Below, piece by piece: positions 8,419 through 39,158 of a DNA stretch of 48,295 nucleotides (the first letter of the stretch is position 1; every line of letters begins with the position of its first letter). Source of the stretch: a virus. The notes beneath the pieces are model-generated. The model saw only the letters and a program-made list of their open reading frames with translations. It was not told where the DNA came from and searched no databases. The position numbers were made by a program, and so were the translations under genes. The stretch spans positions 1-48,295 of the IMG/VR virus record IMGVR_UViG_3300036832_000399, one strand, 5' to 3'.

Positions 8419-8718
8419 ATGCCCTATCTAATCCTACACAAAGTTCGGGGCCAGCCAGCGTTCGACGTGGCGGAGCCGATTCAGATCGGCAGCGAGCACG
8501 AGAGGGGCTGGATAATTCCAACCAGCGGGCACAGAGCCTACCCTTATAGGCATTGGGACCTTAAAAGCCTGGAGTACGCGCTTCCTGGTGGTCTCGAAGT
8601 GCTTCTATTTCCACCTTGGTATTACATTCCCGACGACTGGCCCGACCATTACCCAAACGTCAAGCAACCGCCAACGGCGCCTCGCGAATACAACTCACTA
8701 GAGGAGTTAGGATTATGA
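8419..8718 (+). CDS. Hypothetical protein ending EYNSLEELGL
   Basis: A 99-residue protein (MPYLILHKVRG...) starting at the ATG with AAGGAA upstream; the longer in-frame ORF lacks support. It is rich in aromatic residues and Pro (PPWYYIPDDWPDHYPN). Its last 12 residues (PREYNSLEELGL) nearly duplicate those of the LAGLIDADG protein at 19019-19402, with different synonymous codons. Its stop is an ATGA overlap with the next gene. Function unknown. Confidence 0.65.
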   Translation: MPYLILHKVRGQPAFDVAEPIQIGSEHERGWIIPTSGHRAYPYRHWDLKSLEYALPGGLEVLLFPPWYYIPDDWPDHYPNVKQPPTAPREYNSLEELGL

Positions 8719-9793: not shown

Positions 9794-9994
9794 TTGAGCG
9801 TCCCAACAATCGGCGACGAATACTCCCAGCTTATGGAGAACCTCCGCAAGGCCGAGGAACACGCGGCGATGATCGCCCACCTCCATAACGCCGAGCGCAA
9901 GACCGAGATCGGCGTGATGTGGCTGGCGGTGAGCGAGAACTTCAAGAAGCTTCAACACCAGCTAACGCAATTGGCAATGGGGAGGCTGCAATGA
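9794..9994 (+). CDS. Small helical protein, TTG start
   Basis: A 66-residue protein beginning at TTG (9794), justified by a strong GGAGGTAACAAG ribosome site. It is almost entirely helical (EDYSQ-like start, then ENLRKAEEHAAMIAHLHNAE), with probable coiled-coil character. The position after the hairpin and the rare start suggest tuned expression. No family recognised. Confidence 0.6.
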   Translation: MSVPTIGDEYSQLMENLRKAEEHAAMIAHLHNAERKTEIGVMWLAVSENFKKLQHQLTQLAMGRLQ

Positions 9995-10254
9995 AAGAGG
10001 AACTCGGAAGAACTTGGCTGGTTTATACAGTCAGCTTGCGAGCAATAAAGGATGACGCCATTAGAGAGTTTATTGCCTCTAATGGTGGAGTCCTGGTTTC
10101 GGTCAGAACGCCAAAGCGAAAGAGAAAGGCTCAGGAAGTCACAACTCCCCCGGCTCAGGAGCCTCCAGGAGGATTGGCTAATTGGATGAAGCAGAAGGAA
10201 CCTTCAGATAGCGAATGGTTCGCTGCTGGAGGAGCTACTAAGGATAGAAAATGA
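9991..10254 (+). CDS. Hypothetical protein with basic patch
   Basis: An 87-residue protein in an ATGA overlap. The N-terminal ~38 residues look like a beta-alpha-beta unit (WLVYTVSLRAIKDDAIREF). This is followed by a strongly basic patch (TPKRKRKAQ, ~44-52) and a disordered Pro-rich tail. The basic patch suggests nucleic-acid binding, which is inference only. Confidence 0.6.
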   Translation: MKEELGRTWLVYTVSLRAIKDDAIREFIASNGGVLVSVRTPKRKRKAQEVTTPPAQEPPGGLANWMKQKEPSDSEWFAAGGATKDRK

Positions 10255-10451
10255 CAGTCAGAGCGCTTACAAAAAGGGAAGAGGCCAGGCTAGCCAAGCT
10301 TGGAGACCCGTTTAAGTGGGTTCTTATTGTTCCTGAGGTGAACTCGCCGTCCAGAATTTACGGTCCATTTGCTACGTTAGAAAAAGCTCGCGCATACCTC
10401 CCTGGCGTGGATGGCTTCATTCAGGCTCTTTCAAAACCAGAGGAACACTAA
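10251..10451 (+). CDS. Small hypothetical protein
   Basis: A 66-residue protein with a charged N-terminal helix (TKREEARLAKLGD) and a small alpha/beta C-terminal part containing IYGPFATLEKARAYL, a pattern seen in small phage proteins that handle partner proteins. ATGA-coupled to the previous gene and one base from the helicase start. Function unknown. Confidence 0.6.
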   Translation: MTVRALTKREEARLAKLGDPFKWVLIVPEVNSPSRIYGPFATLEKARAYLPGVDGFIQALSKPEEH

Positions 10452-10452
10452 T

Positions 10453-11925
10453 ATGACATATGTCCTAGAATACGACGGCAAAACGCTCGAAGCTACCGAG
10501 GAGCAGACCTCTATTATCGAGGAGGCTCTCAACTGCAAGGATAGCCTCCTCATCAACGCGCTCGCCGGCGCGGCCAAAACGAGCACCTTGCAGTTCCTCT
10601 GTAAGTACTTGCCCAACGACATGCCGATCCTCTCACTCGCCTTCAACAAGCGCATTGCCGAGGAAATGCAGAAGCGCCTTCCGGCCAATGTGGCCGCTAT
10701 GACGCTGAACAGCATTGGTCATCGCGCCTGGTCCGGTCAGACTGGCCGGCGCCTGACCGTCAACAAGGACAAGTCCTACGACTTCCTTAAGGCGCATATC
10801 GGCGCCCTATCGCGCCGGAGCCAAGAGGTTCAATACGATATGTTTGCAGACACTCTTGCGGCTATCCGACAAGCTAAAATTGCTGGCTACATCCCTGAAT
10901 CGATTGGCAGAAAAGGTCTCTGCACTGGTGAAGAGTTTTACAGCTCGCTAGAGGAGGACTGTTACCGTGATACAGTTGATGCGGTCCTTCGCCAGTCTAT
11001 CGCGTCGTCCCTCGAGGGCGTCATTGACTTTGACGATCAGATATACATGCCCACACTGTTTGGAGGCGTTTTCCCAAGATATCCGCTTACAATGGTGGAC
11101 GAGGCTCAAGACCTTTCGTCGATTAACCATGCCATGCTCGAAAAGCTCGTGCCCAATCGCCTCATGGCAGTGGGCGATCCGTGGCAATCAATTTACGCTT
11201 TTCGTGGGGCAATCACTTCCAGTATGCAACGACTCAAAGAGCGCTTCTCAATGCGAGAAATGACGCTGAGCGTCAGCTTTCGCTGTCCTCAAGCTGTCGT
11301 TCGCAAAGCGCAGAGCCGCGTCCCTCACATGAAATGGGCGCCTTGGGCGCTTGAGGGCGCTGTTAGCGCTCGAGCCCCTTGGGCTATCAATGGCGACACG
11401 AGCAGCACTGCGATTATCTGTCGCAACAACGCTCCGCTCTTCGCGTTGGCGCTCAAGCTTCTTCGCGCCGGCCACGGCGTTCAGCTTATTGGAACAGATA
11501 TTGGCGCGGGCTTGCTTCGCACCATGAAGAAATTTGGTCCGGACGAAATGCCTCGCAAGGACGTTCTCCAAGCTATTGAAAGGTGGACAAGTGAAAAAAT
11601 CGACAGTGGCAAACCGCCTGGGCCAATCTACGATAAAGCTGAATGTTTCCGCGTTTTTGCAGAATACGGAGAGACACTCCGGGACGCTGTTGCATACGCG
11701 GAGCTTCTCTTTAAATCCAAAGGACCCGTCCAACTTCTCAGTGGGCATAAGGCTAAGGGTCTCGAATGGGATTTCGTATATCACCTTGATCCTTGGCGAA
11801 TACCCAGCAAGTGGGCCAAAGAACCAGAAGCGCTCGAGCAGGAGCTTAACGTCGAGTACGTCATCACGACGAGGGCGAAGCGCGAGTTGTTCTTAGTTAA
11901 CCTGGAGGACTTCAGTGAGCTTTAA
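10453..11925 (+). CDS. SF1 (UvrD/Rep-like) DNA helicase
   Basis: A 490-residue ATP-dependent 3'-5' DNA helicase candidate for replication or recombination. Motifs in order: Walker A region LAGAAKTST (~37-45), motif II VDEAQD, motif III GDPWQSIYAFRGA, motif V LSGHKAKGLEWDFVY, and motif VI VEYVITTRAKREL. It is compact compared with UvrD (~720 aa) and probably lacks large accessory insertions. The P-loop is odd: the usual GTGKT is GAAKT, keeping Lys-Thr but losing the second Gly. The start at 10453 removes a 14-residue extension that would overlap the upstream gene. Confidence 0.88.
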   Translation: MTYVLEYDGKTLEATEEQTSIIEEALNCKDSLLINALAGAAKTSTLQFLCKYLPNDMPILSLAFNKRIAEEMQKRLPANVAAMTLNSIGHRAWSGQTGRRLTVNKDKSYDFLKAHIGALSRRSQEVQYDMFADTLAAIRQAKIAGYIPESIGRKGLCTGEEFYSSLEEDCYRDTVDAVLRQSIASSLEGVIDFDDQIYMPTLFGGVFPRYPLTMVDEAQDLSSINHAMLEKLVPNRLMAVGDPWQSIYAFRGAITSSMQRLKERFSMREMTLSVSFRCPQAVVRKAQSRVPHMKWAPWALEGAVSARAPWAINGDTSSTAIICRNNAPLFALALKLLRAGHGVQLIGTDIGAGLLRTMKKFGPDEMPRKDVLQAIERWTSEKIDSGKPPGPIYDKAECFRVFAEYGETLRDAVAYAELLFKSKGPVQLLSGHKAKGLEWDFVYHLDPWRIPSKWAKEPEALEQELNVEYVITTRAKRELFLVNLEDFSEL

Positions 11926-12211
11926 TCGGACACCGCTAGCGCTCGAAGATGTAAAGCGGGTTCTCGATAGAGCGCTCAACGCGACGCGAGGGCTAGAAGT
12001 CAATTTCAAAACGAGAGGCGAAGCTATTTATTGGCGCGGTCGAGCCAATTACTTTCGGCGGCTCGATCGACGTGAGAACGCTCAAATCTATGACGAGACA
12101 CACATCCTACACAAGCAGTCGATCTACGACAAGCTTCGTCTCGAATTAAGCGGGACGGCAGTTCTTATCAAGAAGGTCGAAATGGCCCTGCCGGATATGA
12201 GGGAGATCTGA
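11915..12211 (+). CDS. Hypothetical protein after helicase
   Basis: A 98-residue basic, helical protein with a GTG start (11915) preceded by GGAGG; it overlaps the helicase end by 11 bases. It is Arg-rich (IYWRGRANYFRRLDRREN). There are no metal or membrane motifs. It might bind nucleic acid or assist the helicase; this rests only on charge and coupling. Confidence 0.6.
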   Translation: MSFNRTPLALEDVKRVLDRALNATRGLEVNFKTRGEAIYWRGRANYFRRLDRRENAQIYDETHILHKQSIYDKLRLELSGTAVLIKKVEMALPDMREI

Positions 12212-12655: not shown

Positions 12656-12830
12656 ATTATTTGCAAGGAACCCGCTTGAAAAGCGCTACACCGACGAGGA
12701 ACTCGACCGAGTGATCGCCTATATGCGTGAGCGCCGTAAGCAATCGCTGCTTGGCAAGGCCGCCCCAAAGCCTAAGAGCGAAAAGCCGATTGGCAAAGAC
12801 CCTGACAGCCTGGAGGATTTGGGACTATGA
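12636..12830 (+). CDS. Hypothetical protein ending DSLEDLGL
   Basis: A 64-residue protein with a GTG start (12636) and a strong GAGGAGG site inside the upstream gene, which it overlaps by 20 bases. It is a helical, Arg/Lys-rich N-terminal half, then a Pro/Lys-rich linker and the C-terminal DSLEDLGL, a member of the tail motif shared with 8419-8718 and 19019-19402. It ends in an ATGA overlap. Confidence 0.6.
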   Translation: MPDTIAELFARNPLEKRYTDEELDRVIAYMRERRKQSLLGKAAPKPKSEKPIGKDPDSLEDLGL

Positions 12831-14317: not shown

Positions 14318-14329
14318 TGAGAGATGCAT

Positions 14330-15112
14330 ATGCCAACATTAGACAAGCTGACGGCAAGCCCCGTAGTCAAACTCCTGATGATAGGCGATAGTGGCACAGG
14401 CAAGACTGGCTCCCTCGCCTCCCTTGTGAAGGTCGGTTATGACGTTAGATTGCTGGATATGGACGCCGGGTGGGAAAGCCTCGCAGCGGCTGTTCGACGA
14501 ACATGCCCTGAACGACTTTCTTCGGTCCAAGTCGAATCCTTCCGAGATAAGTATCGCCCGTCTGCAGCCGGCCCAATTCTTGAAGGAGCACCAACAGCGT
14601 TTACTAAAGCTTTCGGTCTCCTGGATAAATGGGGAGATCTTGGAAATCCTCGCGAATGGGGACCAAATGCCGTCCTTGCTATCGATAGTCTTACCTTTCT
14701 TAGTGACGGAGCTTTCAACTGGGCCTGGGCCATGAACCCAGGAGCCAAGGATCAACGCCAGATATACGGAGCCGCACAAGATGCCATCGAACACGTCCTC
14801 AATTACATTACGAATAGAGACTACAATACCAACGTCATTGTTACAGCGCATATCAGATTCATCGACCTTCCGGATGGAACTAAAAGAGGCTATCCAACTG
14901 CTGTTGGGCAGGCACTTAGCCCTACAATCCCTCGGTATTTCAATAGTGTGGTCCAGTGTGTCACCCGGCCCGGGGGAGCCCGCACAATCCAAACAGTCTC
15001 CACCGCCCTCATAGACCTGAAGAACCCTGCGAGCTTCGAAATGGCCAAAGAGTTGCCGATTGAGACGGGGTTGGCAACTTTTTTCCAAACCGTCAAGGGA
15101 GCAAAGAAATGA
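14330..15112 (+). CDS. RecA-like ATPase (AAA_24/Sak4 type)
   Basis: A 260-residue P-loop ATPase with Walker A GDSGTGKT (~19-26), an acidic segment LLDMDAG (~43-49) and Walker B-like VLAIDSLTF (~122-130). The late IVTAHIRF segment is typical of the RecA-core family that includes phage Sak4 single-strand annealing proteins. It probably loads on ssDNA for recombination-dependent replication, working with the adjacent nuclease and the DUF669-like protein. The ATG at 14330 is preferred to 14324 by spacing from GAGAG. Confidence 0.82.
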   Translation: MPTLDKLTASPVVKLLMIGDSGTGKTGSLASLVKVGYDVRLLDMDAGWESLAAAVRRTCPERLSSVQVESFRDKYRPSAAGPILEGAPTAFTKAFGLLDKWGDLGNPREWGPNAVLAIDSLTFLSDGAFNWAWAMNPGAKDQRQIYGAAQDAIEHVLNYITNRDYNTNVIVTAHIRFIDLPDGTKRGYPTAVGQALSPTIPRYFNSVVQCVTRPGGARTIQTVSTALIDLKNPASFEMAKELPIETGLATFFQTVKGAKK

Positions 15113-15342
15113 ACGAAAGCCGACGAAAGAAACTCGTATCAGTCATAGACCTCATCGAGAGAGCAAAGGTCGACATCGAAGAAATTAAATCCGACGAAGA
15201 GGACAGTCTGGAAAACATGCCAGAAGGCATTCGCAGCGGAGAGGAAGGAGAACGAACAGAGGAAATCGTAAACGAACTCGACGAAGCAGTAACATCGCTT
15301 GGTGATACACAAGATAAACTCAATGGAGTCATAGAGCAATGA
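15109..15342 (+). CDS. Acidic coiled-coil protein
   Basis: A 77-residue protein, very acidic (KSDEEDSLENMPEG, SGEEGERTEE), with a helical N-terminus and a C-terminal helix with heptad spacing (IVNELDEAVTSLGDTQDKL). It sits between the ATPase and the ssDNA-binding protein with ATGA overlaps at both ends. It may be a DNA mimic or an accessory to those proteins; no homologue recognised. Confidence 0.65.
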   Translation: MNESRRKKLVSVIDLIERAKVDIEEIKSDEEDSLENMPEGIRSGEEGERTEEIVNELDEAVTSLGDTQDKLNGVIEQ

Positions 15343-15776
15343 GCACCCTCGAAGAAATCCTGAATACACGCGCGAAGGACATCGAGCCGCCAAAGGCACT
15401 GCCGTCTGGTACGTACCTCGGCATCGTGGATGGAATGTTCGAGCGGATCGAAAGCCGTGAGAAGAAGACTCCCGGCTATCGCTTTCGTGCCAAGCTTATC
15501 CGCCCGATCGAGGTCGCCGACGAGCAAGGCCTTGCCGATGCGGGTGGTTGCGAAGGTAAGTCTGTCAGCATCGACTTCTACGTGACCGAGAACAACAAGT
15601 ATTTCATAAAGCAGTTCCTCGTTGAGCACCTCGGTATCGAGGAGGGTGAGAAAACCATCCTGGAACTAATGAGTGAGAGCCCTGGGCGCCAGGTCGGCGT
15701 CGTCCTTCGACAGCAGTTGTCGAGGGGCACTGAACCTCGTATGATCCACGTTCTCGCAGGGACGGTGCGGGTCTAA
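15339..15776 (+). CDS. DUF669-like ssDNA-binding protein
   Basis: A 145-residue beta-rich protein beginning MSTLEEILNTRAKDIEPP. The pattern PSGTYLGIVDG, YRFRAKLIRP, VSIDFYVTEN and a helix FLVEHLGIEEG resembles the DUF669/OB-like proteins found beside Sak4 ATPases in many phages. Its presumed role is to coat ssDNA and recruit the ATPase. It is the last gene before an 81-base gap holding a strong hairpin. Confidence 0.75.
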   Translation: MSTLEEILNTRAKDIEPPKALPSGTYLGIVDGMFERIESREKKTPGYRFRAKLIRPIEVADEQGLADAGGCEGKSVSIDFYVTENNKYFIKQFLVEHLGIEEGEKTILELMSESPGRQVGVVLRQQLSRGTEPRMIHVLAGTVRV

Positions 15777-17473: not shown

Positions 17474-17646
17474 TTAAGGAAAAATGGCCTAAACTAACAG
17501 TTAAGGAACTTCACGAGTTACAAATGAGGTTTAATCGAGACTGGCAAAAAGGCATAGAACTCTACGTTCCCGGATATAAGGGCGGTCCAAGCGGGGACAT
17601 AGTGCTGCACATGATCGAGATGGGCTGGCGCCCAAAGCGGCGATGA
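17470..17646 (+). CDS. Small hypothetical protein
   Basis: A 58-residue protein (MIKEKWPKLTVKELHELQM...) read from the sequence. It has a helical N-terminal half and a basic end (MGWRPKRR). It overlaps the methyltransferase stop (ATGA) and the UDG-exonuclease ATG (ATGA), which is the main evidence that it is real. No family recognised. Confidence 0.6.
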   Translation: MIKEKWPKLTVKELHELQMRFNRDWQKGIELYVPGYKGGPSGDIVLHMIEMGWRPKRR

Positions 17647-18731
17647 TAGCGCTCATCGGCGAATCCTGGGGCGAGAACGAAGAACGCCTTCAGCGTCCCT
17701 TCGTGGGAACCTCAGGTCTCGAACTCGCTAAGATGTGCGACGAGGCTGGTATCATCAAGATGTCGTTTCATGACCGCTCGATGGCGCAGGCGTACTGGTC
17801 CACTCGAGACCCCAAGTTCGTAGCTGCGATATGGGACGCCCATCCAGAACTCTACCTCACGAACGTGTTCAACATCAGGCCGAGGCCGACCAATGACATC
17901 GCAAACCTATGTGGCAGTAAAGCTCAGTCTATCCCTGGCCGTCCCAGTCTCAGCCTTGGAAAGTATATTCTTGCTAAATACGCTTCTGAACTTAATCGGC
18001 TTGAGAAAGAACTACTATCCCTTAAGCCCAATCTTGCGATCGCAGTTGGAGGAACTGCTGCGTGGGCTCTCCTTGGACAGCCCGGCATTCTTAAAATTCG
18101 AGGAACTGTCGCTTGGTCCAACCTTGGTATCAAGTGCATTCCAATCGTCCACCCCGCTGCCATTCTCCGCGAATGGAAGCTCCGAGTCATCACCGTCAGT
18201 GATCTGATCAAAGCCCGACGCGAAAGCGCATTCCGAGAAATTCGCAGGCCGCAACGCGCCGTCTGGACAGAACCATCGCTAAGTGATATGGAGACCTTCT
18301 ATGAAACATACATCCGCGAATGCAAACTCCTCTCCATTGACATTGAGACAGTTGGAACAGAAATTACTTGTATTGGATTCGCTCCCAATGAGCGAGTTTC
18401 ACTTGTTGTTCCGTTCGTTGACCTCAGAAAACCAGATGGAGCTTATTGGATCAATCTTGACCATGAACGCGCAGCTTGGAAGTTTGTTAGCCGCTGCTTA
18501 CGCCATCCATGCCGAAAGGTTTTCCAGAACGGAGCCTTCGACCTCTCCATCCTCTATAACGTTTACGGTCTAGCAACCGCTGGTGAGTGTGAGGACACGA
18601 TGCTGCTGCATCACGCGCTGCAGCCGGAAATGCAGAAGGGCCTCGGGTTCCTTGGGAGCGTTTACACGAACGAGCCGGCCTGGAAGCTTATGCGATCGAA
18701 GCACATGGAGACCTTGAAAAGAGATGAATAA
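17643..18731 (+). CDS. Uracil-DNA glycosylase fused to 3'-5' exonuclease (N-part of split polymerase)
   Basis: A 362-residue protein. Residues ~1-195 match the UDG superfamily: IGESWGENE (~5-13), PFVGTSG (~19-25), LTNVFNIRPRPTND (~72-85) and the HPAAILR motif (H170). Residues ~225-355 are a DnaQ-like proofreading exonuclease with Exo I SIDIET (D233, E235) and Exo II FQNGAFD (D300). Exo III is missing here; it lies at the start of the gene at 19399. The protein ends METLKRDE, just where an intact phage polymerase would continue. It therefore looks like the first half of a UDG-exo-polymerase gene broken by an insertion. Confidence 0.85.
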   Translation: MIALIGESWGENEERLQRPFVGTSGLELAKMCDEAGIIKMSFHDRSMAQAYWSTRDPKFVAAIWDAHPELYLTNVFNIRPRPTNDIANLCGSKAQSIPGRPSLSLGKYILAKYASELNRLEKELLSLKPNLAIAVGGTAAWALLGQPGILKIRGTVAWSNLGIKCIPIVHPAAILREWKLRVITVSDLIKARRESAFREIRRPQRAVWTEPSLSDMETFYETYIRECKLLSIDIETVGTEITCIGFAPNERVSLVVPFVDLRKPDGAYWINLDHERAAWKFVSRCLRHPCRKVFQNGAFDLSILYNVYGLATAGECEDTMLLHHALQPEMQKGLGFLGSVYTNEPAWKLMRSKHMETLKRDE

Positions 18732-18891
18732 GAAACACTTGAAGCTCGTAATAAAGGATGGTCTCAGCACGATTTACTACGAATTTGATTCGGTGCTGAA
18801 CAAAGCTTTGGCTCTGCATTACGTACAAGAGATGTGTAGAACCTATCAACTCGTTAGACCAGGCTACAAGAGTAAGAAGAAAAAGAAATGA
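18724..18891 (+). CDS. Small Lys-tailed protein inside the polymerase split
   Basis: A 55-residue protein (MNKKHLKLVIKDGLSTIYYEF...) overlapping the end of the exonuclease gene by 8 bases and ending in five lysines (KSKKKKK). The basic tail suggests nucleic-acid binding. It is the first of three small genes separating the two polymerase parts. No family recognised. Confidence 0.6.
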   Translation: MNKKHLKLVIKDGLSTIYYEFDSVLNKALALHYVQEMCRTYQLVRPGYKSKKKKK

Positions 18892-19022
18892 CCAGCATCT
18901 TCCCAGCGATGCTTATTGTGCTCGACCTCGGTGCCAGCGCCGTTTACACCGCCTATGGCGACTGGCGCCGAGCAGTTTACTGGTTTGCGGCGGCGGTCCT
19001 AACCTTGACGGTGACGATATGA
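18888..19022 (+). CDS. Small membrane protein inside the polymerase split
   Basis: A 44-residue protein with hydrophobic segments at ~4-18 and ~30-43 separated by YGDWRRAVY, so probably two short spans. ATGA overlaps on both sides. GC-richer than the gene on either side. Unknown function. Confidence 0.5.
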   Translation: MTSIFPAMLIVLDLGASAVYTAYGDWRRAVYWFAAAVLTLTVTI

Positions 19023-19402
19023 CAGAATTAGAACTGGTCTGGCTTGCTGGCCTGCTCGAAGGAGAAGGTAGTTTTCATGTTGGCCGTAATTACTCAGGAA
19101 GAGGTTGGTATGTTCAGGTAAGAGTCAACATGATCGATAAGGATGTAATAGCTAAAGCGGCAGCTTTGATGCAATGTAGTTGCCTTCTTCGATACGAACC
19201 ATCTATGCGGCGAAGAGGGTATAAACCTCAATATAAAGCAACGCTGCATGCGCAACGTGCAATCGATCTTATGTACAAGTTACTTCCTCATATGGGAGAT
19301 CGCAGATCAGCGCGAATAAAGGAGATCATAAGAGTGTGGGAAGATAGATATAACCATAAACCAGCTCGCGAATACAATACGCTTGAAGAGCTTGGTCTAT
19401 GA
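19019..19402 (+). CDS. LAGLIDADG-type homing endonuclease-like protein
   Basis: A 127-residue single-domain protein with the motif LAGLLEGEGSF (~10-20), the hallmark of LAGLIDADG endonucleases, including its acidic catalytic position. It is followed by the expected beta strands and helices. One motif implies it acts as a homodimer. It is AT-rich relative to the surrounding replication genes. It lies between the two halves of the polymerase, so it may have moved into this conserved gene. It ends AREYNTLEELGL, almost identical to the tail of 8419-8718, and its stop overlaps the polymerase ATG. Confidence 0.82.
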   Translation: MTELELVWLAGLLEGEGSFHVGRNYSGRGWYVQVRVNMIDKDVIAKAAALMQCSCLLRYEPSMRRRGYKPQYKATLHAQRAIDLMYKLLPHMGDRRSARIKEIIRVWEDRYNHKPAREYNTLEELGL

Positions 19403-20862
19403 AGATTATTTACACTGACAAGCTTGAACGCCCTCCAAGCTCTGAAACAGAGAAGTTGTGGATTTATAACGGCCTGGATACTATGGTAACTCAAGAAGTT
19501 TTCAGAGCAATAGAGACTGATCTGAATGAAACAACACGAGCCACGTATGAATTCTCGAAAGCTCTTCAGGGCCCTACGATGGAAATGAAACTCAGGGGAG
19601 TTCGCATCGATGTCCAAGTCAGAGATCAGTTGGTTCGAGACTTTGAGAGCGAGATTGGAGAGATCGAATATCATCTGCAACGAATCCTTATTGGAGGAGT
19701 TGGTGTCTCAGCTATCAACTGGCGATCCCCTGCACAAGTGTCTAATCTCCTTTATAATGTCCTTGATTGCCCGCCCGTGCGACGAGCCGGTAAGACTACT
19801 GTCAACCGAGATGCGCTCGAAAAGCTTAAAAGCTATTTTCTCGCAGAGCCTCTTATTAATCATATCCTCGCGTGCCGCGATCTTCACAAGAAGATTGGAG
19901 TTCTCAAGACCGAGATTGATTCTGACAATCGGATCAGAACAAGTTATAATATCGCTGGAACAAACACTGGACGATTCAGTTCCAGCTTCAGCGACTTCGG
20001 CACCGGAACAAATCTCCAAAACATAGAGAAGCGGCTTCGCCGTATTTTCGTCGCCGATTCAGGAATGAAGTTCGCGCAGTTGGATGCAGAGCAGGGAGAT
20101 AGTCGCTGTGTCGGAGCAATCGAATGGAACCTCTTCCGCGACGGTGCTTACCTTGACGCTTGCGAGTCCGGAGACCTCCACACCTCAGTGTCTCGAATGG
20201 CGTGGCCAAATATGCAATGGACTGGAGATATACGAGCTGATCGTGAAATTGCAGAGCAGCCCTTTTATCGACAGCATTCATTTAGACATATGGCCAAAGT
20301 TCTCGGTCATGGAACTAATTATATGGGCACCCCCTCAACGATGGCTGTTCATACAAAAATTGATTCGGGAGTCATTGAGAAGTTTCAGTCCGCATACTTT
20401 AGAGGCTTTCCCGGCCACCTCTCTTGGCACATCTCCGTCGCCAACGTGCTTAAGCGAGATGGGTTTCTTGTTAGCCTCATGGGGCGAAGGCGACACTTCC
20501 TAGGGCGGCTAACCGAAGCAGAAACCATTCGCGAAGCAGTGGCCTACGACCCACAGGGATCGTGCAGCGATATCCTTAACAACGGGATGTTGCAGGTCTG
20601 GCAAGCCAATATCTGCCAAGTTCTTATGAATATCCACGATGCTATTCTGGTCCAGTATCCACAGGAGCGCGAAGATGAAATAGTCCACCAACTAAAATCA
20701 CTGATGCGTCACCCCGTAGTGCTCCAGCATGACCGGGTTATGGAACTGCCCTACGAAGTCAAGACCGGCTGGAACTGGGCAGACCACTCCAAGGATAACC
20801 CCGACGGGCTAAAAAAGTACAATGGCTGTGACAGCCGCTGTCGCTCCGAGGAGATTAAATGA
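19399..20862 (+). CDS. Family A DNA polymerase (C-part of split gene)
   Basis: A 487-residue DNA polymerase. Near its start it has IYNGLD (Y23, D27), the Exo III Y-x3-D motif belonging to the exonuclease domain whose Exo I and II are in 17643-18731. The polymerase core then follows: thumb, motif A LDAEQGDSR (D229), motif B RHMAKVLGHGTNYMG (R296, K300, Y308) and motif C NIHDAIL (H412, D413; the usual HDE is HDA). It has its own ATG in an ATGA overlap with the endonuclease gene. To proofread, it would have to assemble with the upstream product. Confidence 0.93.
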   Translation: MKIIYTDKLERPPSSETEKLWIYNGLDTMVTQEVFRAIETDLNETTRATYEFSKALQGPTMEMKLRGVRIDVQVRDQLVRDFESEIGEIEYHLQRILIGGVGVSAINWRSPAQVSNLLYNVLDCPPVRRAGKTTVNRDALEKLKSYFLAEPLINHILACRDLHKKIGVLKTEIDSDNRIRTSYNIAGTNTGRFSSSFSDFGTGTNLQNIEKRLRRIFVADSGMKFAQLDAEQGDSRCVGAIEWNLFRDGAYLDACESGDLHTSVSRMAWPNMQWTGDIRADREIAEQPFYRQHSFRHMAKVLGHGTNYMGTPSTMAVHTKIDSGVIEKFQSAYFRGFPGHLSWHISVANVLKRDGFLVSLMGRRRHFLGRLTEAETIREAVAYDPQGSCSDILNNGMLQVWQANICQVLMNIHDAILVQYPQEREDEIVHQLKSLMRHPVVLQHDRVMELPYEVKTGWNWADHSKDNPDGLKKYNGCDSRCRSEEIK

Positions 20863-36784: not shown

Positions 36785-38433
36785 GATCCGAAGTGCGCCT
36801 CAAAGATGATTCTGCCAACTGCACCATTGCCGCCAGCGAAGTCAGAGCCGGTTCCACCACCGCCGCCAGTGCCGACGGTGTAGGTGTAGGTAGCAACTGG
36901 GCTATTAATTATGGTCTCGCAGTAAGCTCCAGAGCCGCCACCGGGCCCAGTTTGTGAATTAACAGTAGACCATCCGCCACCTTGGCCACCGCCACCAGTA
37001 TTGGATATAGCGGCTTGTCCTATACTTGCGAATGAATTCCGGCCTCCGCCACCTAGAACAGGAGAATCACCACCTGCGGCACCGTTGTTCACATTGATCG
37101 ATGAAGGACCGCCGCTTCCACCAGTTACAGCAAGCTCATTGCAAGTCCCGCTGCCAGTCACTGTGCCACCTGTGCCACCAAAACCGCTGATCACAGTTCC
37201 ACCATTGCCGCCGCCAGCAGACAGAACTGGAGTCGTGCAAGCCGGGGAAGAGGTATTTAGGCAAGATGGAAGGCCATTCGAGCCATTACCTTGAGTAAGA
37301 CCACCACCACCTCCTCCACCACCACCGCCCCAAATCTTGATTCTGATCCAAAGAGCGCCAGCTGGAGTTGTGTAAGTAGCGTTGGTGCCAAAGGTAAAGG
37401 CTTGGACATTTGGAAGAGTTTGCCGGGCAGCACTAAGGGCAACGGTGACGTTAGGGGCAGCAACAGTTGCGGTTAGACCTGCGCCCGCAAGAACGCTTGC
37501 TGGACCTGTAATACCATTGAGTGAAGCAACACCTGCAACACCCGAGGTCGAGCAGACACCAATCTGGCATTTGCGGATCGCATTATCAGCGGCGGAGAAA
37601 TAAAGAATATAGTCGTTGGTGTTGTTAGGCGTATTATTGGCTACAAGCCCAGTAATAGTTGATGGGCTGGTTCCGAGGCTTGCCGAACTAAGAGTTCCAA
37701 ATGTAAGGACTCCACCAGTGTTGAAAGCTCCATTGACATCGAAGTCAAATGCTCCTGGAGTTTTGTTAATTCCGACTCTGTTATTTGTTGTATCAACACG
37801 GACAACCTGATTTGTTCCAGCAGCATTTGTAATTTGAACAGCTGTTGTTGAATCTGTATTAGGCTTAATGATCGGGACGTTAATTCCAGCGAATCTTGGG
37901 ACATCGGTTATAGCTCCTATTACACCTGTTCCACCAAGCGGGATCGTACCCGGCGCAGTAAGGCCGACGCCTGTACCAGAATTGATAGTTATCGATCCAG
38001 AACCACCACCGCCTGGTGGTGTTGCCCAGGTTCCGTCAGCACGAAGGAAATTAGTAACACCACCGCCAGAAGCAGGGACAGCGCCAGGTAGGCTTGAAGT
38101 AAAGACGTCGATAAACGCTGTCGCATCCGCACTGGTCATCTCCCCTAAAAGCCCGGAATTGGCAAAGAGTGGGCCATTGACAATACCACCAAGAACGACA
38201 GTAGTGCCAACAGTTAGAGTATCACCTCCACCACCTCCACCACCGCTACCACAAACTGGATCTTGTCCTATGGTCGGCCACACAAGCGTTTGTCCAGCAG
38301 AGCAAGGACCAACCGTTCTCCAACCAACAACGCCAGGGCCGCCACCAACTGGAACGGCGTGGTTAGTGATATCCTGCGCAAGAGCGGCGGACGAGGCCAA
38401 AAGCAGAGCTATGAGCGGAAGGCGTTTAACCAC
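36781..38433 (-). CDS. Gly-rich receptor-binding fibre with signal peptide
   Basis: A 550-residue protein. It starts with a textbook Sec signal (MVKRLPLIALLLASSAALAQ, cut after ALA-Q), unusual for a virion protein. It continues with HAVPVGGGPGVVGW and a disulfide-capable CSAGQTLVWPTIGQDPVC. Residues ~80-165 repeat a module also found in 39514-40656 (TVGTTVVLGG ... VPASGGG ... NFLRADGTWA). The last ~190 residues are poly-Gly loops (IKIWGGGGGGGGGG), the layout of polyglycine receptor-binding tips, ending VGRIIFEAHFGS. Confidence 0.75.
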   Translation of the reverse strand: MVKRLPLIALLLASSAALAQDITNHAVPVGGGPGVVGWRTVGPCSAGQTLVWPTIGQDPVCGSGGGGGGGDTLTVGTTVVLGGIVNGPLFANSGLLGEMTSADATAFIDVFTSSLPGAVPASGGGVTNFLRADGTWATPPGGGGSGSITINSGTGVGLTAPGTIPLGGTGVIGAITDVPRFAGINVPIIKPNTDSTTAVQITNAAGTNQVVRVDTTNNRVGINKTPGAFDFDVNGAFNTGGVLTFGTLSSASLGTSPSTITGLVANNTPNNTNDYILYFSAADNAIRKCQIGVCSTSGVAGVASLNGITGPASVLAGAGLTATVAAPNVTVALSAARQTLPNVQAFTFGTNATYTTPAGALWIRIKIWGGGGGGGGGGLTQGNGSNGLPSCLNTSSPACTTPVLSAGGGNGGTVISGFGGTGGTVTGSGTCNELAVTGGSGGPSSINVNNGAAGGDSPVLGGGGRNSFASIGQAAISNTGGGGQGGGWSTVNSQTGPGGGSGAYCETIINSPVATYTYTVGTGGGGGTGSDFAGGNGAVGRIIFEAHFGS

Positions 38434-38995
38434 TGTACCACCCCGTCAGATCATTCAGTGGATACAAGCGAAGTAACTGACGATTCTGCACCATTATGAA
38501 GCTCTGAACCAGCAAATCTATGGTCTGAGCCCCAAATGGTGCCACAATTATGTTACTTGCGGCAGCATTACCCCCGAGGTCTTTGATCCAGATAGCACGC
38601 TCGAATCCTGTAGCTGGCTGATAGGCTATTTCTTGAACCCACTGCACGACATCAGGAAGCTGAATTGTGACCCCACCTACGGCATTGACAAGAATGATCG
38701 AATCCCCTGGAGTAACGAAGTACGTCCCCAGAGATGTGACTAAGGTGGTTGGTTTGACTTGGACTTCCTTCCATCCAAGCGATGGGCCAAGATAAACTTT
38801 AGATTTGTGCCAAGAGCTACCACTCATATCCAAATCGAGGTTTCTGGTATTGCTGCCAGCTGGCACTGCGGGCGGCAATCCAATAACCTGAAAGGAATTA
38901 TTCTGAAATGCTGTATCTACAAAGGCAGGACCAGTCACAGCACCACCCACTTGCTGAAAGGCGTTGATTTGAAAGGCATTAGCTTGGAAGGACAC
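38426..38995 (-). CDS. Virion-associated protein with AFQ repeats
   Basis: A 189-residue protein. I chose a GTG start (38993-38995) preceded by AAGGAAG. It opens with a repeat of the type FQANAFQINAFQ (residues 3-14) and again TAFQNNSFQ (~30-38); the rest is beta-rich (VTIQLPDVVQW, IIVAPFGAQTIDL). An AFQVNN unit also begins 43654-43902, so these may share an assembly or trimerisation element. Probably a fibre or fibre-associated protein. Confidence 0.65.
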   Translation of the reverse strand: MSFQANAFQINAFQQVGGAVTGPAFVDTAFQNNSFQVIGLPPAVPAGSNTRNLDLDMSGSSWHKSKVYLGPSLGWKEVQVKPTTLVTSLGTYFVTPGDSIILVNAVGGVTIQLPDVVQWVQEIAYQPATGFERAIWIKDLGGNAAASNIIVAPFGAQTIDLLVQSFIMVQNRQLLRLYPLNDLTGWYSG

Positions 38996-39158
38996 ATTGA
39001 GCTTCCTTACTATTGCCTGATGATGGCTGCTGCTGCTGGGCGTTGATCTGCTTTTGTATCTCGAGCAGAATAGGCGCAGCAATCCGATATGGAGCATTCT
39101 CCAAGCAAGCACCGATATCCTTGATCATTTGTTCCGTGAACGTGAATGTGAACATCAT
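38979..39158 (-). CDS. Small helical protein in fibre cluster
   Basis: A 59-residue protein starting MMFTFTFTEQMIKD with GGAGAG upstream. It has one helix (MIKDIGACLENAPYRIAAPIL) and a Gln-rich stretch (INAQQQQ). It overlaps the next gene by 17 bases. Possibly a fibre chaperone or assembly peptide; no homologue recognised. Confidence 0.6.
   Translation of the reverse strand: MMFTFTFTEQMIKDIGACLENAPYRIAAPILLEIQKQINAQQQQPSSGNSKEAQCVLPS

Follow-up and report, generated by a model that had tools for sequence, protein, structure and literature searches.

In a single phage, several otherwise unrelated proteins have a short C-terminal peptide in common, and comparison of their predicted sequences across related loci shows this end to be conserved at the level of its amino acids and to change in concert from one phage to another. 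That the tail peptide itself is under selection in this family of phages is very probable, and it is the firmest claim of the analysis. The starting point is the window, the whole 48,295-nucleotide stretch of an IMG/VR virus record. The last tripeptide LGL is common to four of its proteins, P1 to P4 (Table 1), as LEELGL (twice), LEDLGL and LAALGL, and family clustering of the called genes places them in four separate families.

Table 1. Tagged proteins of the window, their tails and neighbouring features
Feature	Position	Strand	Remarks
P1, 106 aa	7758..8078	+	ends GLAALGL, then stop; tail codons 8058-8075
P2, 99 aa, YLILHKVRG family	8419..8718	+	ends PREYNSLEELGL, then stop
P2 tail REYNSLEELGL	8683..8715	+	
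AGAGGAG, Shine-Dalgarno (SD)-like word within P2 tail	8700..8706	+	8 nt before ATG at 8715
Gene after P2	8715-8990	+	ATGA overlap with P2 stop at 8715
f7	11915..12211	+	untagged in window; RRx tag in clade B
P3, 64 aa	12636..12830	+	ends PDSLEDLGL, then stop; DSLEDLGL at 12804-12827
Sak4-like recombinase	14324..15112	+	untagged in window; RR-type tail in clade B
OB-fold single-strand-binding-like protein	15339..15776	+	no C-terminal tail; ordered to its end
P4, LAGLIDADG-type endonuclease	19019..19402	+	ends AREYNTLEELGL, then stop; between UDG/exonuclease and polymerase genes
P4 tail REYNTLEELGL	19367..19399	+	13-codon end in common with P2

Concerted tails in two clades

The initial annotation had singled out these four proteins as unrelated apart from a common end. 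Its coordinates are exact, and the sharing is far above chance: four LGL ends are seen where 0.033 are expected among the 65 called genes of the window (Poisson P(>=4) = 4.7e-8, or 3.8e-4 after multiplication by the 8000 tripeptides). When T7, lambda, PaP2, Tiera, TM4, Kuura and ctMlz233 served as controls under the same gene calling, none of these seven phages had a tripeptide at the end of three proteins. P1 is the weakest member of the set, sharing only LAALGL and having no relative among the called genes of related loci on family clustering. The start of P2 at 8419 is backed by relatives whose N-terminus reads ..YLILHKVRGxPAFD, and AF2 predicts P3 to have ordered helices at 5-10 and 20-41, followed by a linker of low confidence and a short helix at the very end. 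The P2 and P4 genes are identical at 29 of 39 nt at their ends and at 11 of 51 nt just upstream; their last 12 sense codons differ by seven synonymous and three non-synonymous changes (P = 2.8e-3, for 8.7 synonymous and 27.3 non-synonymous sites). Since the match is limited to 13 codons and the changes within it are mostly synonymous, this end looks like the product of a single copying event, after which the peptide was maintained. The REYN extension appears to be private to the window phage, the DNA pattern for EYN[ST]LE[ED]LGL finding no match in IMG/VR.

Relatives were collected by way of the DNA polymerase in four IMG/VR scans; the matches listed, of roughly 400 to 475 IMG/VR relatives, reduce to 149 non-redundant loci with the window counted in. 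These loci, many of them partial or fragments, contain 2405 genes by heuristic calling and come from a family of soil phages that is large and uncultured. Among annotated phages, megablast with the window finds nothing related; P2- and P3-type proteins have no tblastn match in cultured or annotated phages, and searching IMG/VR with P2 and P4 alone gives none either. The polymerase tree separates clade A, which has 55 tips with the window among them and a support of 0.991, from clade B, a contrast that rests on one deep split. GTDB genomes yielded a single relative, L225 (JAIQFF010000206.1), a contig of 7.4 kb from a Terriglobia (Acidobacteriota) MAG, which offers a weak hint at the host.

In clade A, 26 proteins have LxxLGL within their last 14 residues, against 0, 1 and 0 in three windows upstream; the motif lies near the end of 7/7 P2 members and 18/24 P3 members. 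The enrichment at C-termini of related phages that had been proposed as a check on the initial annotation is thus found. The motif is an acidic-hydrophobic L-x-x-L-G-L, with tails such as IDLEELGL, IDLNELGL, INLEELGLL and LLKDLGL; P3 also takes N-L-D-D-I-L forms (NLDDIL and IDLEDIL are found in L028). The P3 proteins of three loci (L180, L187 and L202) have the motif twice in tandem (LLKELGLASSGDLLKDLGLK), as would be expected of a binding motif and not of a ribosome site.

In clade B, a phage has between two and five unrelated proteins that end R-R-x, among them P2, P3, f7 and often Sak4; x is the same within a phage and varies from one phage to the next (F, V, Y, G, R or L). The tags are KRRF (G004, G005), RRV (L052, L053), RRY (L055), RRG (L072), RRR (L063, L082) and RRL (L135), with IMRR (L073) and KRRSW (L037) as related variants. 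Non-homologous pairs within a locus share their last three residues 76 times, against a permutation mean of 17.0 (maximum 29 in 300 permutations), and internal and N-terminal controls give 9 and 10 pairs. Among the 106 RRx proteins, which come from 50 loci, 47 cross-family pairs out of 110 have the last residue in common, where the null averages 13.8 and reaches at most 28 over 2000 permutations; leaving out Sak4, which tracks its phage's x only loosely, 43 of 88 pairs agree (null 12.4, maximum 25). The concordant pairs are spread over 17 loci and several different x. Mismatches in the last RRx codon number 54, 39 and 73 at positions 1, 2 and 3, against 77, 66 and 80 under the null; the first two positions fall below the null and the third does not, which indicates selection on the last amino acid. 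Some clade-B proteins are bipartite, with LxxLG[LIV] followed by a Pro-rich linker and a basic end; DLLAKLGLAKPLEPLKRRSW and IDLAALGLSKKAEEPPPAPMKRRSW, both from L037, are examples.

What the tail may do

Our preferred reading, on which our confidence is evenly balanced, is that the tail may be a short linear docking motif, presented at a free C-terminus to a common putative partner. Carried on a flexible or disordered linker, the peptide would bind one partner, either a phage replication/recombination protein or a host protein varying from host to host, and the tag would bring small accessory proteins, the recombinase and acquired endonucleases to one place. Such a partner would co-evolve with the tag and so account for the joint switching of x on all clients of a phage. 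Where a stop overlaps the next start, the bases of the tail can double as a Shine-Dalgarno site. The tagged proteins lie in or near a replication/recombination region comprising the exonuclease, Sak4, the OB-fold protein and the split UDG/exonuclease and polymerase, their "early" status following from gene order. The OB-fold protein is a possible partner. The tag's presence outside replication genes and the loose following of x by Sak4 speak against docking.

Two such genes outside the replication region have been seen. The gene immediately before the large terminase gene of G004 (38198-39055, minus strand) ends FKRRF, and a structural-region gene of G005 (9964-10479, plus strand) ends NRRF; the tag is accordingly not confined to replication genes.

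C-terminal tails of this general kind do work in phages: on SSB-coated DNA, binding of Sak4 depends on the last six residues of the HK620 SSB (PMC5928155), and the acidic C-terminal tails of T7 gp4 bind gp5 (PMC12593628). The tails described here resemble that of SSB (DDDIPF in E. coli, NDYPPF in HK620), which recruits DNA-processing proteins, in being short free C-terminal peptides on a disordered linker, and the window resembles the HK620 setting in having Sak4 together with an SSB-like module. They differ from it in their placing, on several small unrelated proteins instead of on the OB-fold protein, and in a sequence that is particular to each phage and shifts on all of them together; the ends are LGL or RRx, whereas an SSB tail is an acidic P-F end on an OB-fold protein, and the OB-fold protein of the window is tailless. 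With T7 gp4, whose tails serve to couple the replisome, they share the placing of C-terminal tails on phage proteins; the gp4 tail is acidic and recognized by charge, whereas here a defined LxxLGL or RRx end is found on two to five proteins. No description of a concerted, phage-specific tag shared by unrelated proteins was found in the literature searched.

If docking is the right reading, small phage proteins that now lack a function would gain a shared and testable role, and finding the partner of one peptide would lead to the function of several families. Dark-matter phage genes could then be grouped by their ends instead of by homology, and the case would be one of a protein tag that evolves in concert in unrelated genes of the same virus, superimposed on ribosome sites. 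In a bolder version, offered tentatively, the tail might be a phage-encoded C-terminal barcode: the phage would mark a set of its own proteins with one short peptide that is read by a dedicated, co-evolving receptor, and incoming mobile endonucleases would be domesticated by taking on the resident tag.

The partner might instead belong to the host, the tail docking to its replisome, RNA polymerase or clamp for the sake of takeover and not to a phage protein, which we consider unlikely. Concerted change between phages would suit differing hosts, the evidence on which consists of the one Terriglobia contig. E. coli Pol IV ends in the clamp motif QLVLGL, and LGL at the C-terminus resembles it and the more general sliding-clamp motifs (QL[SD]LF, QLxLxL), a resemblance that is a lead only. 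As a clamp-binding motif the tail was tried and rejected: the clamp-type glutamine at position 1 and leucine at position 2 are missing from LEELGL, LEDLGL, LAALGL, LKDLGL and LNELGL. It is comparably doubtful that the tail is a degron sending early proteins to a host AAA+ protease, with tags varying because hosts differ. A free C-terminus with a short hydrophobic or basic ending on a disordered linker would fit such a signal, and small early proteins would be plausible clients, but there is no ssrA-like AA ending, F, V, Y, G, R and L make a broad range of x for host proteases, and the tag is also found on the recombinase, the pre-terminase gene and the structural-region gene.

Ribosome sites at tagged ends

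According to the initial annotation, selection appeared to act on the peptide and not only on a ribosome site within it. The clade-A enrichment, the synonymous codons and the sister clade bear this inference out, with one qualification: many tagged ends are also under the constraint of a genuine ribosome site, and both constraints act. RR is what AGGAGG encodes ahead of a TRATG junction, and 48 of 114 SD-bearing TRATG junctions do encode RR. Half of the RRx tails (53/106) combine an SD word with a stop/start overlap (48 TRATG and 5 ATGA), whereas 34/106 have no SD word. AGG codons are favoured in RR tails (the same codon in 44%, against 27% expected), which points to selection at the DNA level as well. 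In the window, three of the four tails lie on ATGA overlaps: the SD word near the next start is good in P2, usable in P3 (GGAGG, overlap with the gene at 12827) and weak in P4 (GAAGAG, with nothing better, overlap with the polymerase gene at 19399). P1 has a TAA stop, no overlap with the next gene and no SD word.

Might translational coupling then account for everything, the tail being a coding by-product of an SD word and an overlapping stop and start, with one initiation word per phage? The junction counts just given favour this, and there is a precedent in the start-associated sequences of mycobacteriophages, a case of phages in which a single SD-containing word is used repeatedly (PMC3203893). 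Those sequences, like the tails, stand beside starts, and they adjoin non-structural genes; they are DNA repeats, however, whereas the tails keep their peptide and vary at silent positions. Several observations make coupling by itself distinctly improbable. An element that served initiation only would be conserved regardless of codon position, but positions 1 and 2 are kept and position 3 is free; the differences between P2 and P4 are mostly synonymous, and third positions drift in clade B, so that conservation at the DNA level only, which had been named as grounds for abandoning the peptide, is not what is found. The SD word does not reach the last residue. Some shared tails have no overlap, and others no AGGAG-type SD word, as with IMRR (L073), ARRF (G003) and, in clade A, the IDLNELGL/IDLEELGL common to the proteins of L085, and in some relatives P3 contains two copies of LxxLGL. 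The SD word alone thus leaves x, its free third codon position, the SD-less tails and the LGL type unexplained.

It is most unlikely that the tails are functionless copied gene ends, a cassette of tail and next start spread by recombination and not yet diverged: the match of P2 and P4 over exactly their last 13 codons, with chance identity upstream, is what copying would leave, and such a copy would bring its start signal along, but silent sites have diverged while the peptide was kept, and three to five proteins per genome have the same x in different codons.

Mobile nucleases and neighbouring genes

Two acquired nucleases bear the tag of their own phage. One is P4, a LAGLIDADG homing endonuclease by its motif (LAGLLEGEGSF), its match to phrog_5046 (E = 1e-16) and ~40% identity to annotated phage LAGLIDADG endonucleases, with a Pfam score under the cut-off; the other is a GIY-YIG-like protein (L049:57-434; E = 0.009, below the Pfam cut-off) that ends ..LREALGISKFPRRF. 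The pair suggests that mobile nucleases may acquire the tag of the resident phage. LAGLIDADG genes at the exonuclease/polymerase junction of L019 and L146 are without the tag.

The A-family polymerase of the window is split (17643-20862): of phrog_17, the stretch 554-789 is matched by the gene for UDG and the 3'-5' exonuclease, and 804-1241 by the polymerase gene. The same split is seen in relatives, where small ORFs or a LAGLIDADG gene frequently lie between the two parts (L005, L019 and L146). Rfam finds nothing in the window at gathering thresholds, and hence no recognized intron at the split.

The OB-fold protein has no Pfam or PHROG match, and its nearest solved structure is the ssDNA-binding PrgE of plasmid pCF10; it is possibly a new SSB family. 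Family 17 (L019:3484-4068 and 24 relatives), which is widespread, mostly in clade A, and has a conserved ..ALNQTxHENLRNNFA.., is likewise without a convincing database match; some of its members end SLESLGL or SLDDILG. A LAGLIDADG relative in L020 (1294-1722) has ELNLDELF near its C-terminus, resembling the NLDDIL form of the clade-A motif.
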